A stretch of DNA of 64,000 nt from positions 434,001-498,000 of the forward strand of contig NZ_JAHXBG010000001.1 in the NCBI RefSeq assembly GCF_020103725.1, given 5' to 3'. The notes beneath the pieces were generated by a model. That model saw nothing but the letters and a program-made list of their open reading frames with translations, was not told the DNA's origin and did no database searches. The stretch is from Hyalangium gracile. Its GTDB lineage: Bacteria; Myxococcota; Myxococcia; Myxococcales; Myxococcaceae. A program made the translations under genes and the position numbers. How positions within the stretch are numbered: the stretch's first letter is position 1; the number at the start of each line of letters is the position of its first letter. This document shows positions 3,909-54,912 of the stretch, piece after piece.

Positions 3909-5255
3909 CTATCGTGGTTTGCCCTGGGTGACGAGGTGGTTCAGCTCCGTGCCTGGCGTGGCTATCTCCGTGGCGAGATCAGCGAGCTCTCTCGTCAGCA
4001 CCGCCTTGCACTCCGCTGCAGTCCTGCAGTCTCCCATCGCCTTGCTCAAGCGTTCGTAGATGGCTCGATGGTACTGCTCGGGGTGCGGTCCCTTGTGCCC
4101 CTCGATGGGAACGATGTTCTCGGGATCCTTCAACCGCATTCCTGCCTTGGCGTAGAGCTTCCTGAGCCGCGGTGTCCATGGTCCCCCTCGCAGCGCGGAC
4201 TTCTCGTTCGCGATGGTGCCGATGTGATGCTTCTCGATGCGATGTCCGCGCCCGTCCCGCGCCGCCATCGCCACCGCGCCCCGAGGCACCACCACGAGGA
4301 AGCCCTCAGCCGTGACAGCGGCTTCCTCCACCGCGCCCACCTCGGACAGCATGAGGCCTTCCTGGGTTGCGGCCCGCATCGACACCTGGGCCGAACCGGG
4401 CAATGTCGCCACTTCCGCCGCGAAACCCTGCGCCGAGTGCGTGAGCACCGCCATCGCGATCATCGCGAATGCCCTGGCCGCTTCACGGGAGAACAGCTTG
4501 CCAAACCTCTCGCCCGCCTCACGGAGCTGCTCGAAGGTGGTGGCGACCTTCACCTCCTCCATCAACTGGAACCAGCCCGTGATGAGGTTGTAGAGCGTGG
4601 AGGCGCCTATCCAAAGAACCAGCGCGACGGTCGCCCAAGCAGCCAGGAGCTTCGTCACCGGCTCGGGCAGCGCGAGCAAGAACAGCAGCGTGCCCACCGT
4701 CCACAGCGCGGCTTGCACCACGGCCTGCATGCTCACCATCTCCCCCAGCGCCGTCTCGAACTCGCTCAGCACGGGGCTTCTGCTCAGGGCCAGCGCCCAC
4801 ATGTAGCGGCCTTGCTGATCCAGGTACTTCCCGGCAACCAGTGCGCCCCCCAGACAGTCACCCGCGACGCCGTGTGCACTCCGGCACCAGAGCTTGTAGC
4901 GGCTCGCCAGCGCCTCCTCCGCCTCGGACAGTCCTCCTGCCAGGGGAGTGCCCGACTCCAGCGAGACGAGCCTCCGCTCCCGAAGCAGGTACAGGTAGTC
5001 GCCATAGAGCGCGTCGAGCTGGAACAATCGCTCCACCGTCTCGCGAGGTGAGCCAGAGAGGCGCACCTTCCGCGCCGCTCTCCGGATGGCTTCGGTGGCG
5101 TCCTCCTGTGTCACCTTCACGGGTTCCGCCGAAGCAGCCCGGGGGATGAAGAGGATGGTTTCCCCAGCCGCGCCAGTGTCCATCCTGACCACTTGCGGCG
5201 TACCACTGCACCCGACCATCAACGCCATCAACAGCGCGGCCGTTCTTGGAAGCAT
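3909..5255 (-). CDS. SitA-like polymorphic lipoprotein toxin with C-terminal AHH nuclease domain
   Basis: 448 residues. The N-terminus is a type II signal peptide with the lipidated Cys at 16 (LMVGC). A middle body carries a WC-x8-GDCLG motif (Cys124, Cys134), a hydrophobic hairpin around LPEPVTK (about 180-226), then GWFQLMEE and the ATTFEQLREAGER block (about 228-250). The C-terminal 115 residues are an AHH-type HNH/Endo VII nuclease: KHHIG (His343-His344), GGPWTPR, then GHKGPHPEQYH (His387, His391, His396). The middle body is shared with the second toxin at 41906-43387, while the tips differ, which defines a polymorphic toxin. Myxobacterial SitA toxins are lipoproteins moved between cells by outer-membrane exchange (TraA/TraB), so the same route is inferred here. 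The predicted action is cleavage of nucleic acid in non-immune siblings. Confidence 0.85.
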   Translation of the reverse strand: MLPRTAALLMALMVGCSGTPQVVRMDTGAAGETILFIPRAASAEPVKVTQEDATEAIRRAARKVRLSGSPRETVERLFQLDALYGDYLYLLRERRLVSLESGTPLAGGLSEAEEALASRYKLWCRSAHGVAGDCLGGALVAGKYLDQQGRYMWALALSRSPVLSEFETALGEMVSMQAVVQAALWTVGTLLFLLALPEPVTKLLAAWATVALVLWIGASTLYNLITGWFQLMEEVKVATTFEQLREAGERFGKLFSREAARAFAMIAMAVLTHSAQGFAAEVATLPGSAQVSMRAATQEGLMLSEVGAVEEAAVTAEGFLVVVPRGAVAMAARDGRGHRIEKHHIGTIANEKSALRGGPWTPRLRKLYAKAGMRLKDPENIVPIEGHKGPHPEQYHRAIYERLSKAMGDCRTAAECKAVLTRELADLATEIATPGTELNHLVTQGKPR

Positions 5256-51005: not shown

Positions 51006-51317
51006 ATGAACAACGGCAGCGAGCAGTCCGGCGTCGTCCAGGTCCCCTTCTCCTCCGCCCTGGCGGAGTACCTCGAGCGGATTCGAGCGTTGGGAGCCAT
51101 GGAGGGCGTCGACGGTGCCGTCGCGCTCAGTCCCACGCTCAAGCCCGTCCTCGAGGCGATGCACCACGTCCTGGCTGGAGGCGAGGTGGAGGTGCGCATC
51201 CTGCGCGATGGACAGCAGGACATCTTCCAGGAGCTGCAGCAGCGCGCCGACCAGGCCACCGAGGCCACCAACGCGCTCAATCAGGGACAGGGAAGGATGG
51301 TCGTCACCGCCGTATGA
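51006..51317 (+). CDS. Small soluble protein, first gene of a four-gene operon
   Basis: 103 residues, GGGAGTAAGG before the ATG. It is acidic and helical (LAEYLERIRAL, PTLKPVLEAMHHVLAGGEVE), with EVRILRDGQQDIFQELQQRADQATEATNAL at the end. No signal peptide and no recognised family. Its stop overlaps the start of the kinase gene by four bases (ATGA, 51314-51317), so it is coupled to it. Confidence 0.75.
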   Translation: MNNGSEQSGVVQVPFSSALAEYLERIRALGAMEGVDGAVALSPTLKPVLEAMHHVLAGGEVEVRILRDGQQDIFQELQQRADQATEATNALNQGQGRMVVTAV

Positions 51318-52669
51318 GCCGGCTCTCCTCCATGGGCTGCGCCACCCGGACGGCCTTCCAGCGCTGGGTCAACGCCCAGAACGTCCCCGAGGTGCTGGCG
51401 GCCAGCAGCGTCAGCTCGTGGCTGGCGCTCGTCGCGCTGGTGCTGCTGCTGCTGGCGGCCGCCTCGTGGGCGCCGCGCGCCGAGCAGCTCTTCGCCCTGC
51501 CCGTGGGCACCGCGCTGCTCTGCTTCATTCCCGCGCTGGTGGACTTCGCCTTCGCCCTGCTGCACCGCAAGCGCCAGCACGTGGAGACGTGGGGCTGGCT
51601 GCTGTCGCTCGCCGGCACCACCGGCCTGCAGTTCTTCGTCGCCAGCCTCATGGCGCTCTCCGCGCCCCAGGGCGCCACCATCTTCGGCGGCTTCTTCCTC
51701 TTCACCGCCGCCTTCCACGGCCGGCTCTTCCGGGTGACGCCGCGCACGCCCTTCCTCGCGGTGGGCACGGCGCTGGCGCTGGCGCTGGCCGCCCTGCTCT
51801 TCGCCCGCCCGGAGCACACCGCCCTGTTCGCCGTCCTCGGCCCCGCGTCCCTCATGGCCGAGCTCTACCTGGGCACCTTCGCCATCCAGCATGACCGCAC
51901 CGCCGCGGAGGCCGAGCGGCTGCGCGCCGCCGTCCAGGCGCAGATGCTGGCCCAGCAGGAGCGCGACGTGGGCCGCATGTCCCAGGCCCTCACGGAGATC
52001 CTCGGCCACAGCGAGGAGATCCGCGAGACGCTGCTGACGGCCAGCACCACCGCGGATCTGCTCACCGGGCAGCTGGTGCGCAGCCAGAGCCTGGCCCGCG
52101 CCGAGCCGGAGCGGCTCATCCGCCAGCTCCACGAGAACCTGGCGCGCATCCGGGACAGGGTGGCGGAGATCCACCAGAAGGGCCGCCGCTACATCGGGAG
52201 CGATCCAGAGGCCGTGGACCTGGTGCCCGTGCTGGACTCCGTGCGTCAGAGCGTGGGCCTGCGCTTCCCGGACGTCTCCATCGCCGTTCAGGTGAACCGG
52301 GGTGAGCCCCTGCGCGCCTGGGTGCGCGGAGGTGTCACGACCCTGCGGCGAGTCGTCGAGAACCTCGTTACCAATGCCTGCGAGGGCGATGGCTTGCGCG
52401 CCGCCGGAAGCGTGCGCATCTCGGCTCGCACCGAGCCGCTGAGCGGGAGGCTGGAGATGATCATCGCCGACGATGGTCCTGGTTTCCCACCGGAGCGGCT
52501 GGCCGCGCCTATCGTGGGCCTCTCCACCACCAAGCCGCGGAGCACCGGGCTGGGGCTGTACACCTCCGAGTGCTTGATTCGTGCCAGCGGCGGCACGCTG
52601 GAGCGCCAGAACGCGCATGAGGGCGGAGCGGTCCTTCGCGTCCTGCTGCCCCGGGAGCTGCGAACATGA
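51314..52669 (+). CDS. Membrane histidine-kinase-like protein, atypical phosphoacceptor region
   Basis: 451 residues. Six hydrophobic segments (about 30-195) form a multi-pass sensor without a large external domain. The dimerisation helices (about 210-300) contain a candidate phosphoacceptor His in ILGHSEEIRETLL, but not the usual HE-x-RTPL. The ATP domain is clear: N box RRVVENLVTNACEG, G1 DDGPGFPPERL, G2 GLGLYTSECLIRASGG. It may be an unusual kinase or a kinase-like ATPase. The start overlaps the previous stop by four bases, and its own stop overlaps the next start by four bases. Confidence 0.85.
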   Translation: MSRLSSMGCATRTAFQRWVNAQNVPEVLAASSVSSWLALVALVLLLLAAASWAPRAEQLFALPVGTALLCFIPALVDFAFALLHRKRQHVETWGWLLSLAGTTGLQFFVASLMALSAPQGATIFGGFFLFTAAFHGRLFRVTPRTPFLAVGTALALALAALLFARPEHTALFAVLGPASLMAELYLGTFAIQHDRTAAEAERLRAAVQAQMLAQQERDVGRMSQALTEILGHSEEIRETLLTASTTADLLTGQLVRSQSLARAEPERLIRQLHENLARIRDRVAEIHQKGRRYIGSDPEAVDLVPVLDSVRQSVGLRFPDVSIAVQVNRGEPLRAWVRGGVTTLRRVVENLVTNACEGDGLRAAGSVRISARTEPLSGRLEMIIADDGPGFPPERLAAPIVGLSTTKPRSTGLGLYTSECLIRASGGTLERQNAHEGGAVLRVLLPRELRT

Positions 52670-53394
52670 GCGGGGGCGCCATCTACCAGGAAGCCCTGCG
52701 GGTGCTGCGGCGGCTGGGGCTGCCGGAGGCCGCCGAGCGGGACGTCGTCGCCGCGCTGGAGGCGGCGCAGCCCGGGCCCCTGGCACTTCTGTACGAGGCG
52801 GGCATGGAGGCAGGGCTGACGCGTGAGGCGCTGCTGACGCGCGGCTCGGGAATCTTCCTCAGCTTCGCCGCGGGCAACCTCGCGGACGATCTCACGGATG
52901 GCGAGTGCTCATATTACGCCCATCCATCACGGGTAGGACCCTACGTGCAGTTCCTCCTGCAGAACCTGGCCTGGGCCACGCTGGCCCGCGCGCAGGTGCC
53001 CGAGGAGGTGCTGGTGGAGGCGGCACGGGGGCTGGCGGAAGCGGCGGGGCCACAGGCCCTGGAGGTGCGGACGCGGGAGTGGACGGCGCCCGTCTTCCAG
53101 CGCGTGGCCGAAGGGCTGGCGGGGCAGCAGTGGGCGGTGTACCTGCGCCTGCTCTGGGCGGGCACACCGCTGGCGGAGTGCTCGGTGGCGGGGCGCGATC
53201 TGGGAATCGCGGCCCACGTGGCCGAGGACATCCGCTCGAGGGACCCACGGTTCTTCAGCATGCCGGAGGCGGACCAGCGCGAGGTGGTGCGCTGGGCACG
53301 GGCGGGGATGGATGGCGTGCGGCGTCAGAAGCTGCGTTGTCTGGACGCGGCGCTCAGGCGCATCGATCCGATTCTTCCGGAGGTAGTGCCATGA
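52666..53394 (+). CDS. Isoprenoid-synthase-like (all-helical, class 1) protein
   Basis: 242 residues, all-helical, no signal peptide. The key motif is D74-D75-L-T-D78 in AGNLADDLTDGECSYY, a DDxxD metal-binding motif in the position typical of class 1 isoprenyl diphosphate synthases and terpene synthases. Around it, LRRLGLPEAAERDVV and PSRVGPYVQFLLQNLAWATLA fit the helical bundle. A second clear Asp-rich or NSE/DTE motif is not seen (VAEDIRSRD is the nearest), and the protein is short, so it may be a degenerate or accessory member. ATGA overlaps link it to the kinase upstream and the methyltransferase downstream. Confidence 0.65.
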   Translation: MSGGAIYQEALRVLRRLGLPEAAERDVVAALEAAQPGPLALLYEAGMEAGLTREALLTRGSGIFLSFAAGNLADDLTDGECSYYAHPSRVGPYVQFLLQNLAWATLARAQVPEEVLVEAARGLAEAAGPQALEVRTREWTAPVFQRVAEGLAGQQWAVYLRLLWAGTPLAECSVAGRDLGIAAHVAEDIRSRDPRFFSMPEADQREVVRWARAGMDGVRRQKLRCLDAALRRIDPILPEVVP

Positions 53395-54257
53395 GGGTAG
53401 AGCCGCTGCGACAGGGAACCGCACGCGACGACGTTGCCGCGTACTACGACGCCAAGACGGAAGGCATCCTGCGCCGTTACGGCCCGGGGCCTCGCGTGCA
53501 CTACCACACCGGCCTGGTGGACGAGTCGCCGCCGCCGGGAATGTCCGCGGAAGCGCTCAAGGTGCTCATCCACGAGTCCCAGGAAGCCCTGCTGCGCGAG
53601 ATGGCGCTCGCGATGGGTGGGCCGAGCCGGGGCTGGGACGTGCTGGACGTGGGCTGCGGGCTGGGAGGCGGCTCGCTGTTCTGGGCCTCCGTCCATGGCG
53701 CGCGCGTCTCCGCCATCACCATCGCGCCGGAGCACCTGCCCTGGGTGGAGCGCTTCGCCGCCATGGCGGGCGTGGGCGATCGGGTGAAGCCCATGCTCTG
53801 CGATGCGCTCGAGGTGCCCGGCCAGGAGCGCTTCGATCTCGTGATGGCGGTGGAGAGCTCCTGCTACCTGCCGCGCCGCGAGTGGTTCCGCAAGGTGCAC
53901 TCGCTGCTGCGCCCCGGCGGCCTGGTGGCCATCGCGGACTGCTTCCTCGGTCGGCCGGAGCTGGCCATGCCGTTCGATCGGTACTGGCGCACGCACATCG
54001 GCTCGGTGGAGGAGTATTTCCGCGCGGCCACCGCGGAGGGCCTGGAGCTGGAGCTCCATCAGGACCTGTCCGGGCGGGCGGTGAACTTCTGGACGCTGAC
54101 GTTGGACTTGCTGGCGCGCGAGCGCGAGCTGTCGCTGCGCGGCGGCCAGGGAGGCATGGGCCGGACCGAGTCCCAGCGCGAGCACCTCCGGCTCCAGCAG
54201 GCGTTCCTGGATGGCGGCCTGCACTACGGGATGATGGTGCTGCGGCGCCCGCACTGA
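53391..54257 (+). CDS. Class I SAM-dependent methyltransferase, possibly acting on isoprenoid diphosphate or lipid
   Basis: 288 residues. The methyl-donor motif is VLDVGCGLGGGSLFWA; an acidic loop follows (PMLCDALEV, then VMAVESSCYL). The N-terminus with VAAYYDAKTEGILRRYGPGPRVHYHTGLVD resembles C-methyltransferases such as geranyl diphosphate methyltransferase and cyclopropane-type enzymes. The pairing with an isoprenoid-synthase-like gene makes methylation of an isoprenyl compound plausible, but this is inference. The ATG overlaps the previous stop by four bases. It is the last gene of the operon. Confidence 0.78.
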   Translation: MRVEPLRQGTARDDVAAYYDAKTEGILRRYGPGPRVHYHTGLVDESPPPGMSAEALKVLIHESQEALLREMALAMGGPSRGWDVLDVGCGLGGGSLFWASVHGARVSAITIAPEHLPWVERFAAMAGVGDRVKPMLCDALEVPGQERFDLVMAVESSCYLPRREWFRKVHSLLRPGGLVAIADCFLGRPELAMPFDRYWRTHIGSVEEYFRAATAEGLELELHQDLSGRAVNFWTLTLDLLARERELSLRGGQGGMGRTESQREHLRLQQAFLDGGLHYGMMVLRRPH

Positions 54258-54408
54258 GCGCTCAGCCCGTCAACCTCAGCGTCAGCAAGGCCAGCCCTCG
54301 TCTCCTCGGCTGGTCTCGGAGCGTGTAGGAGCCATGGAGCCCGTGTCCCATGCCGTCCGGTCGGAGCAGCCCAAGCCTTTGGGGGCAAATCCAACCACGG
54401 AGACGAAC

Positions 54409-54912
54409 ATGAGCTTCAAGCGAATGATGGTGGTGGGTGCCATGGCCTCGGCGCTGGCGTTCACGGGTTGCCAGGATCGCCGCGGTGACGACACGGCCCC
54501 CGGCGGCGCGGTGGAGCAGCCGGAGGGCACGGGCGGCTCGGGCAACGTGGACTCCACCATCCCGGGCAGCAGCGACACCCTGGGCGGCGTCCGCCAGGAT
54601 GATCGGCCCGGGGCGGACCTGGGAGGCACGGGCGGTAGCGGAGGAGAGGCGCTCGAGCCGAACCGCGACCTGGGGAACACGGGCGAGGTGAACGAGCAGG
54701 ACAGCGCCGGCTCGCTGGACCACGGCGGCACCGGGGGCTCCGGCTCCATCAACGAGCACGACACCTCGCTGGACCAGGGTGGCACCGGGGGCTCCGGCTC
54801 CATGAACGACCAGGGCTCCAGCGCCACGGACCCGAGCTGGACGGGCAGCACCGACTCGGTGGATGACCCCAACCGTGTCGACAGCAAGGACGACCAGCGG
54901 ATGGAGAAGTAG
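54409..54912 (+). CDS. Gly/Ser/Asp-rich repeat lipoprotein
   Basis: 167 residues from ATG 54409. The lipobox is FTGC (Cys21). The rest has low complexity: GGTGGSGS-type units repeat (for example HGGTGGSGSINEHD and QGGTGGSGSMNDQG), with matching repeats in the DNA near 54722-54810. No fold is expected in the mature protein; it may be a flexible surface spacer. Function is unknown. Confidence 0.75.
   Translation: MSFKRMMVVGAMASALAFTGCQDRRGDDTAPGGAVEQPEGTGGSGNVDSTIPGSSDTLGGVRQDDRPGADLGGTGGSGGEALEPNRDLGNTGEVNEQDSAGSLDHGGTGGSGSINEHDTSLDQGGTGGSGSMNDQGSSATDPSWTGSTDSVDDPNRVDSKDDQRMEK

Follow-up and report, generated by a model that had tools for sequence, protein, structure and literature searches.

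The stretch of DNA analysed here (the window) comprises 64,000 nucleotides of the 11.7 Mb genome of the myxobacterium Hyalangium gracile (contig NZ_JAHXBG010000001.1, positions 434,001 to 498,000), and its forward strand carries four consecutive open reading frames (ORFs) that form an apparent operon. They encode a small protein of 103 amino acids (SP, 51006-51317), a histidine-kinase-like membrane protein of 451 (HK, 51314-52669), an isoprenyl-synthase-fold protein of 242 (IDS, 52666-53394) and an S-adenosylmethionine (SAM) methyltransferase of 288 (MT, 53391-54257). Neighbouring genes overlap by the four bases ATGA at 51314-51317, 52666-52669 and 53391-53394. A first-pass annotation had pointed out the genes and the three overlaps, and both are kept across 50 loci, namely the window and 49 relatives. 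ATGA forms the SP/HK junction in 39 of 46 testable loci, the HK/IDS junction in 43 of 46 and the IDS/MT junction in 37 of 39, the remaining two (L036, L038) having IDS and MT fused into a single ORF. It is because of this conservation that we regard the overlaps as meaningful; that the products are needed in a fixed ratio, as had been proposed, is not shown by overlaps alone. Between the window and its relative L025, the ratio of nonsynonymous to synonymous substitution rates (dN/dS) is 0.29 for SP, 0.44 for HK, 0.13 for IDS and 0.29 for MT, all below 1, and it ranges from 0.05 to 0.64 for every gene compared in 12 close pairs. The reading frame of HK is also open upstream, across the SP ORF, which we nevertheless take to be real because it is conserved and has profile matches in 46 loci. 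Scans of the window for Rfam families, sigma-70 promoters and terminators found nothing.

The operon is common to many soil-dwelling myxobacteria. A search of the phylum with IDS matched 51 of 195 genomes, one of which (G150/L104) was a false positive due to a TPR protein and was dropped before counting. The 50 carriers all belong to one class, in which the search found them among 147 genomes and spread over 11 of 48 genera. For every one of the 49 relatives, the neighbourhood of IDS was collected and searched with profiles. The search was extended beyond the phylum by a pattern scan of genome contigs, suited to close relatives, which picked up two of these, and by a plasmid search with IDS, which gave a single insignificant match (E 0.7); on this scope, it is not established that other phyla lack the operon. 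The synthase of Hyalangium versicolor H56D21 is 92% identical to the window IDS. Linkage of the four genes in other genomes, on which the first-pass annotation had made its proposal depend, is borne out, with order and junctions kept. SP, HK, IDS and MT follow each other in that order in 35 of the 50 loci, including L038 with its fusion, whereas L036 has all four genes in a rearranged order. L097 combines HK-IDS-MT with an SP that carries an internal deletion (the ORF ending at 4183 of that locus has lost its middle in frame but keeps the start and the C-terminal tail). Ten loci have SP-HK-IDS without an adjacent MT, and two of these (L039, L093) stop at a contig edge. IDS and MT alone, with SP and HK absent, occur in L037 and L102, and L040 is a fragment at a contig end. 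The kinase-like gene is present in 47 of the 50 loci.

A search of 193 genomes of the phylum gave strong profile matches to SP (E 1.8e-15 or better) in 46, every one of them an IDS carrier. In seven further genomes the matches were weak only (no better than E 1.7e-3), and four carriers showed an additional weak match (best E 3.5e-4). A strong SP match is missing from four IDS genomes: the two in which IDS has a dead Asp motif, the one with the L097 deletion and the one represented by the fragment at a contig end. The class and phylum searches found no IDS in genus g43, though 16 of its genomes have an MT match; in all seven of these whose loci were collected, HK directly precedes MT, with a four-base overlap in six as called, and SP was not seen in any of the seven. 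SP thus accompanies a functional-looking IDS together with HK, whereas the set can do without MT.

The 242-residue protein received no family name from Pfam, NCBIfam or PADLOC. Pfam gave no PF00348 match for the window IDS and E 0.16 for that of L041, and a search of three distant IDS and three distant SP sequences for known families returned one chance match only (E 0.063). A profile search of the PDB was led by a mitochondrial ribosomal protein (E 0.025); a rice GGPP-synthase-complex protein aligned with both Asp-motif regions at E 1.8, which is not significant. An isoprenoid-synthase fold had been set beforehand as the test for this protein, and structure prediction and fold matches agree on it. 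The AlphaFold2 model, computed from a 31-row alignment, has a mean predicted local distance difference test score (pLDDT) of 94.8 and a predicted template modelling score (pTM) of 0.92. Foldseek places geranyltranstransferase 2ftz first (E 2.1e-5) among 73 matches with an E value of at most 0.001. In VIA-align, 4wk5 scores Z 23.2 over 232 residues and the farnesyl diphosphate (FPP) synthase 1rqj Z 22.8, the leading rows being tied. Prenyl or isoprenoid synthases make up the best 50 of 655 Foldseek matches and the best 50 of 918 VIA matches (Z>=2) throughout. The predicted structure of IDS is that of a trans-prenyl diphosphate synthase. The suggested DDxxD motif is likewise present (D74, D75, D78). 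Of the earlier terpene-synthase label, the isoprenoid fold stands, but the label is too narrow since the listed fold matches are prenyl diphosphate synthases and the motifs come close to those of ComQ. A squalene/phytoene synthase, suggested by an RFFSMP stretch, has no row among the best 50 of the 918 VIA matches, an absence that excludes nothing.

The first aspartate-rich motif, DDLTD (residues 74-78, 52885-52899), keeps all three Asp residues in 48 of 50 loci. The exceptions, L037 and L102, are also the loci without both SP and HK; their IDS still shows a dN/dS of 0.18. The MT of the same two loci has a changed SAM motif and a shortened N-terminus at a dN/dS of 0.11. At the place of the second motif lies EDIRSRDPR (residues 187-195, 53224-53250), in which only D188 and R195 are invariant (50/50 each); residue 187 is Glu in 26, Ile in three, Ser in one and Gln in one of 31 sequences. 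Class I terpene synthases carry an NSE/DTE second motif, and the pattern xDxx[S/T]xDxR found here is neither NSE nor DDxxD. The usual site for isopentenyl diphosphate (IPP) consists of basic Lys and Arg residues, an RR after the first motif and a KT motif. We judge this site to be missing in the window IDS, in which residues 25-52 contain no Lys and neither an RR behind the first motif nor a KT motif is present. When its profile was compared with four polyprenyl synthases encoded elsewhere in that genome, the alignment was weak (probability 49, E 1.7e-4) and left the RR and KT positions unmatched. IDS shares the fold of the chain-elongating trans-prenyl diphosphate synthases but neither their second DDxxD nor their IPP-binding basic residues, and it is probably a prenyl-transfer or cyclisation enzyme rather than a chain elongase.

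MT belongs by sequence to the group of methyltransferases acting on C6 of geranyl diphosphate (GPP) or FPP. Its closest solved structures are C6-FPP-MT (9TB4, E 2.8e-55) and the C6-GPP-MT BezA (7FBH, E 4.8e-52), and the next chain follows at E 1.5e-15. Codon 155 (53853-53855) encodes the Glu aligned with the catalytic Glu165 of C6-FPP-MT; this residue and F233-W234, the counterpart of the Phe243-Trp244 pair, are kept in 39 of 39 sequences, and Y30 (Y37 in C6-FPP-MT) in 36 of 39. Because the closest relatives are of this kind and the catalytic Glu and the Phe-Trp pair are conserved, MT likely methylates C6 of a prenyl diphosphate, the chain length not being fixed by sequence. The FPP-specific His194 pocket is not retained, C184 replacing H194 in 39 of 39; W199 replaces Y209 and F195 replaces I205, both in 37 of 39 with gaps in the remaining two, and position 40, M47 in C6-FPP-MT, varies between S, V, T, A and C. 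Since these tail-pocket residues differ, the substrate of MT may differ as well and could be shorter. The earlier suggestion that the operon makes or modifies an isoprenoid is strengthened by this assignment. A defence system was also considered and rejected, since PADLOC gave only a match to the methyltransferase domain (mad2, E 2.4e-17). Another C6-MT-like gene (L115, 5071-5847) seemingly lacks the SAM-binding stretch and adjoins an ORF of 866 amino acids.

SP has no Pfam, NCBIfam or PADLOC family, including no ComX Pfam match and no NHLP match. Its AlphaFold2 model (pLDDT 78.1) suggests a structured middle of helix, hairpin, helix and long helix between a disordered N-terminus and a disordered C-terminal tail, which ends in VTAV in the window. 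The motif H..[LM][AS]GG occurs in 46 of 46 sequences, the last residue is Val or Leu in 42 of 46 and the penultimate residue is Thr in 34 of 46. Residues 17-60 are more similar to the window than residues 61-95 in 26 of 27 rows, a conservation gradient that resembles a leader and core. Cleavage at G58-G59, as after a double-glycine leader, was rejected: the hydrophobic residue at position -4 agrees with that motif but positions -7/-8 disagree, and a Pfam scan of 21 window genes gave no match to peptidase C39. The fold search with SP had no significant match (best E 0.57, with winged-helix proteins scattered through the rows), and its PDB profile search was led by designed helical bundles (E 0.03); neither was used.

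HK is predicted from family-averaged hydropathy to have about six transmembrane (TM) segments (membrane part residues 32-187, 51407-51874, by hydropathy only), followed by a degenerate DHp region and a HATPase_c domain (residues 342-448, 52337-52657; PF02518, E 5.9e-15) whose N, G1 and G2 boxes appear to be intact in the window. The phosphoacceptor helices had been called unusual, and they are: in the family alignment, codon 234 (52013-52015) encodes Glu at the phosphoacceptor site, which is occupied by His in 37 of 54 family members. Of the remainder, the window and L025 carry Glu, L026-L031 carry Gln, and nine more have either Gln or Asn. A quick maximum-likelihood tree with parsimony requires at least four changes at this site, the placement of long branches being unsure. 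In L028 and L029 the N and G2 boxes are changed too, yet the dN/dS of HK is 0.31. Because the phosphoacceptor is lost, the window HK cannot use ordinary autophosphorylation at that site. The earlier proposal that the unit senses a signal is unproven.

Taken together, the isoprenoid fold and the linkage of the earlier interpretation hold up and its isoprenoid chemistry is strengthened, while its terpene-synthase label is too narrow and its signal sensing unproven. We tentatively favour, at somewhat less than an even chance, a self-contained module for signalling or modification that would work like ComQ-ComX-ComP or PalQ-PalX-PalP, in which a methylated prenyl group is put on SP and sensed by HK as receptor. 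By homology, MT would transfer the methyl group of SAM to C6 of GPP or FPP and thereby tailor the prenyl donor; the IDS-MT fusions fit channelling between the two enzymes. Judging from its fold and motifs, IDS would use the intact first Asp motif to ionise this allylic diphosphate and would not add IPP. Gene co-occurrence and the analogy to ComQ and PalQ suggest that it could then pass the (methyl)prenyl group to SP, its near-constant partner. The modified SP, or its processed tail, might finally be bound by the six-TM HK, to which its position in the operon would assign the role of receptor. The co-occurrence of SP and IDS, the IDS fold, the first Asp motif, a second motif reduced as in ComQ, the missing IPP site, the MT group with its catalytic residues, the IDS-MT fusions in two families, the leader- and core-like gradient of SP and a gene set parallel to palP-palX-palQ and comQXP support this proposal, as does genus g43, where IDS is absent, HK and MT remain and SP is not seen (7/7 loci).

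Several observations weigh against it. The window SP has no Cys or Trp, so that the candidate prenyl acceptor is not indicated, and the last 22 residues of SP contain Cys in only 7 and Trp in only 1 (L039) of 46 sequences. In contrast to ComX and ComP, neither SP nor the membrane part of HK looks hypervariable. ComQ needs Asn or Gly before the Asp of the second motif (NDxxx/GDxxx), as described in PMC5331326, and neither is found in the operon IDS, which mostly has Glu there (26/31), else Ile, Ser or Gln. A Lys within the stretch 25-52 is present in 4 of 30 aligned relatives (L036, L039, L041, L103). The phosphoacceptor His of HK is lost in 17 of 54 family members, among them that of the window. 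Pfam scans of all 21 genes called in 35.7-63.6 kb revealed no response regulator. Finally, HK and MT persist in genus g43 without IDS or SP. The more specific version of the proposal, a ribosomal protein or peptide signal with a C-methylated (C11 or C16) prenyl group, ComQXP-like beyond the Firmicutes and with a receptor that loses its kinase chemistry lineage by lineage, appears unlikely.

The chief rival is homoterpene biosynthesis, which we consider possible but rather doubtful. MT would then make a C11 or C16 prenyl diphosphate for IDS as a divergent terpene cyclase, and SP and HK would regulate the pathway or sense its product, so that products independent of SP are predicted. An intact first Asp motif and a missing IPP site are what would be expected of a cyclase, and the fusion of IDS with MT in 2 of 39 loci agrees with such a pathway, as does the location of known C6-FPP-MT genes beside terpene synthase genes, reported in PMC12929941. 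However, no cyclases appear among the best 50 of 655 Foldseek and the best 50 of 918 VIA matches, although such absence excludes nothing, and IDS has no Pfam terpene-synthase match. Moreover, ten loci keep IDS, HK and SP without an adjacent MT, and it is left unexplained why strong SP matches occur solely with IDS. The loss of the phosphoacceptor argues against an ordinary phosphorelay in the window lineage, whether IDS is a cyclase or prenylates SP. Alternatively, HK and IDS could be non-catalytic ligand binders, forming an isoprenoid-diphosphate sensor that feeds a membrane pseudokinase. The repeated phosphoacceptor loss, the changed boxes of L028 and L029 and the selection on the L037/L102 IDS despite the missing Asp motif point in this direction, but with the Asp motif in 48 of 50 loci and the Glu and Phe-Trp pair of MT in 39 of 39, both enzymes seem to be functional in all loci with the complete set, which makes this reading decidedly unlikely. 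Ordinary chain elongation, with IDS as a short-chain prenyl diphosphate synthase supplying GPP or FPP to MT, agrees with the overall fold but is very improbable given the unmatched IPP-binding Lys/Arg, RR and KT positions (in a weak alignment), the degenerate second Asp motif and five other PF00348 loci over the cut-off in the window genome.

A gene for a DyP-type peroxidase (PF20628) is found close to the operon in 13 of 50 loci, including all six of genus g8, and could encode an oxidative tailoring partner; examples are L033 (4040-4912), L034 (3650-4531), L035 (4350-5228) and L036 (4066-4917). Between the peroxidase gene and SP, two loci of genus g8 have stand-alone receiver-like ORFs that overlap the peroxidase gene (L034, 4528-4896; L035, 5225-5593). 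The one in L034, which alone was scanned, gave a PF00072 match below the cut-off (E 5e-5); by eye, both ORFs lack the usual phospho-Asp. Directly upstream of the operon in the window, an ORF at 49984-50670 matches N6/N4 DNA methylases in its C-terminal part (PF01555, E 1.7e-6), and the cluster of this DNA-methylase-like gene recurs in 12 of the first 17 loci. Downstream, an ORF at 54334-54912 has GTGGSG repeats and a lipoprotein-like stretch but no Pfam match.

Myxobacteria are social, and the literature searched holds no prenylated-peptide signalling in them. If the prenylation of SP were true, kinase-linked peptide prenylation would not be a Firmicutes peculiarity, and methylated, non-canonical isoprenoids would serve as protein modifications or signals beyond free terpenes. 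Even under homoterpene biosynthesis, an IDS-fold enzyme family missed by sequence models would be paired with a C6-type methyltransferase. In addition, the operon offers a natural series of kinase-like proteins in which the phosphoacceptor was lost at least four times while the operon is still under purifying selection.

Pseudokinases of the Caulobacter DivL type are kinase-like proteins without a phosphoacceptor His. The window HK is like them in this one feature. The operon MT keeps the catalytic Glu, the Phe-Trp pair and the Tyr of the Streptomyces enzymes C6-FPP-MT (9TB4) and BezA (7FBH) but differs from C6-FPP-MT in its tail-pocket residues (PMC12929941). The four-gene set as such was not described in the literature found, subscription papers and preprints being mostly outside its coverage, and to that extent the earlier statement that no described system has this make-up stands; two known systems, however, have three analogous parts. 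One is PalP-PalX-PalQ of Paenibacillus alvei, which unites a kinase, a small precursor with a leader domain and a divergent prenyltransferase of the IDS superfamily in one cluster (PMC10853753). There, PalX is NHLP-type and its terminal Trp is prenylated, whereas the operon SP has neither an NHLP match nor a C-terminal Trp, and the three-gene pal cluster, as described there, has no methyltransferase. The other is ComQ-ComX-ComP(-ComA) of Bacillus, with an IDS-fold protein, a small protein and a multi-TM histidine kinase in one locus (PMC4008528 and PMC5331326); the abstract of a ComQXPA census reports none outside the Firmicutes. SP differs from ComX in having no C-terminal Trp, and the locus differs from ComQXPA in its extra methyltransferase and in the absence of a ComA-like regulator from the 21 scanned genes around it. 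We do not class the operon as a member of ComQXPA or Pal, since it was searched for the C-terminal Trp and the ComQ motif and has neither. Still, the first Asp motif is conserved in ComQ and the second is reduced to its second Asp (PMC5331326), and the operon IDS has the same combination, with the first motif intact in 48 and the second reduced in 50 of 50 loci.

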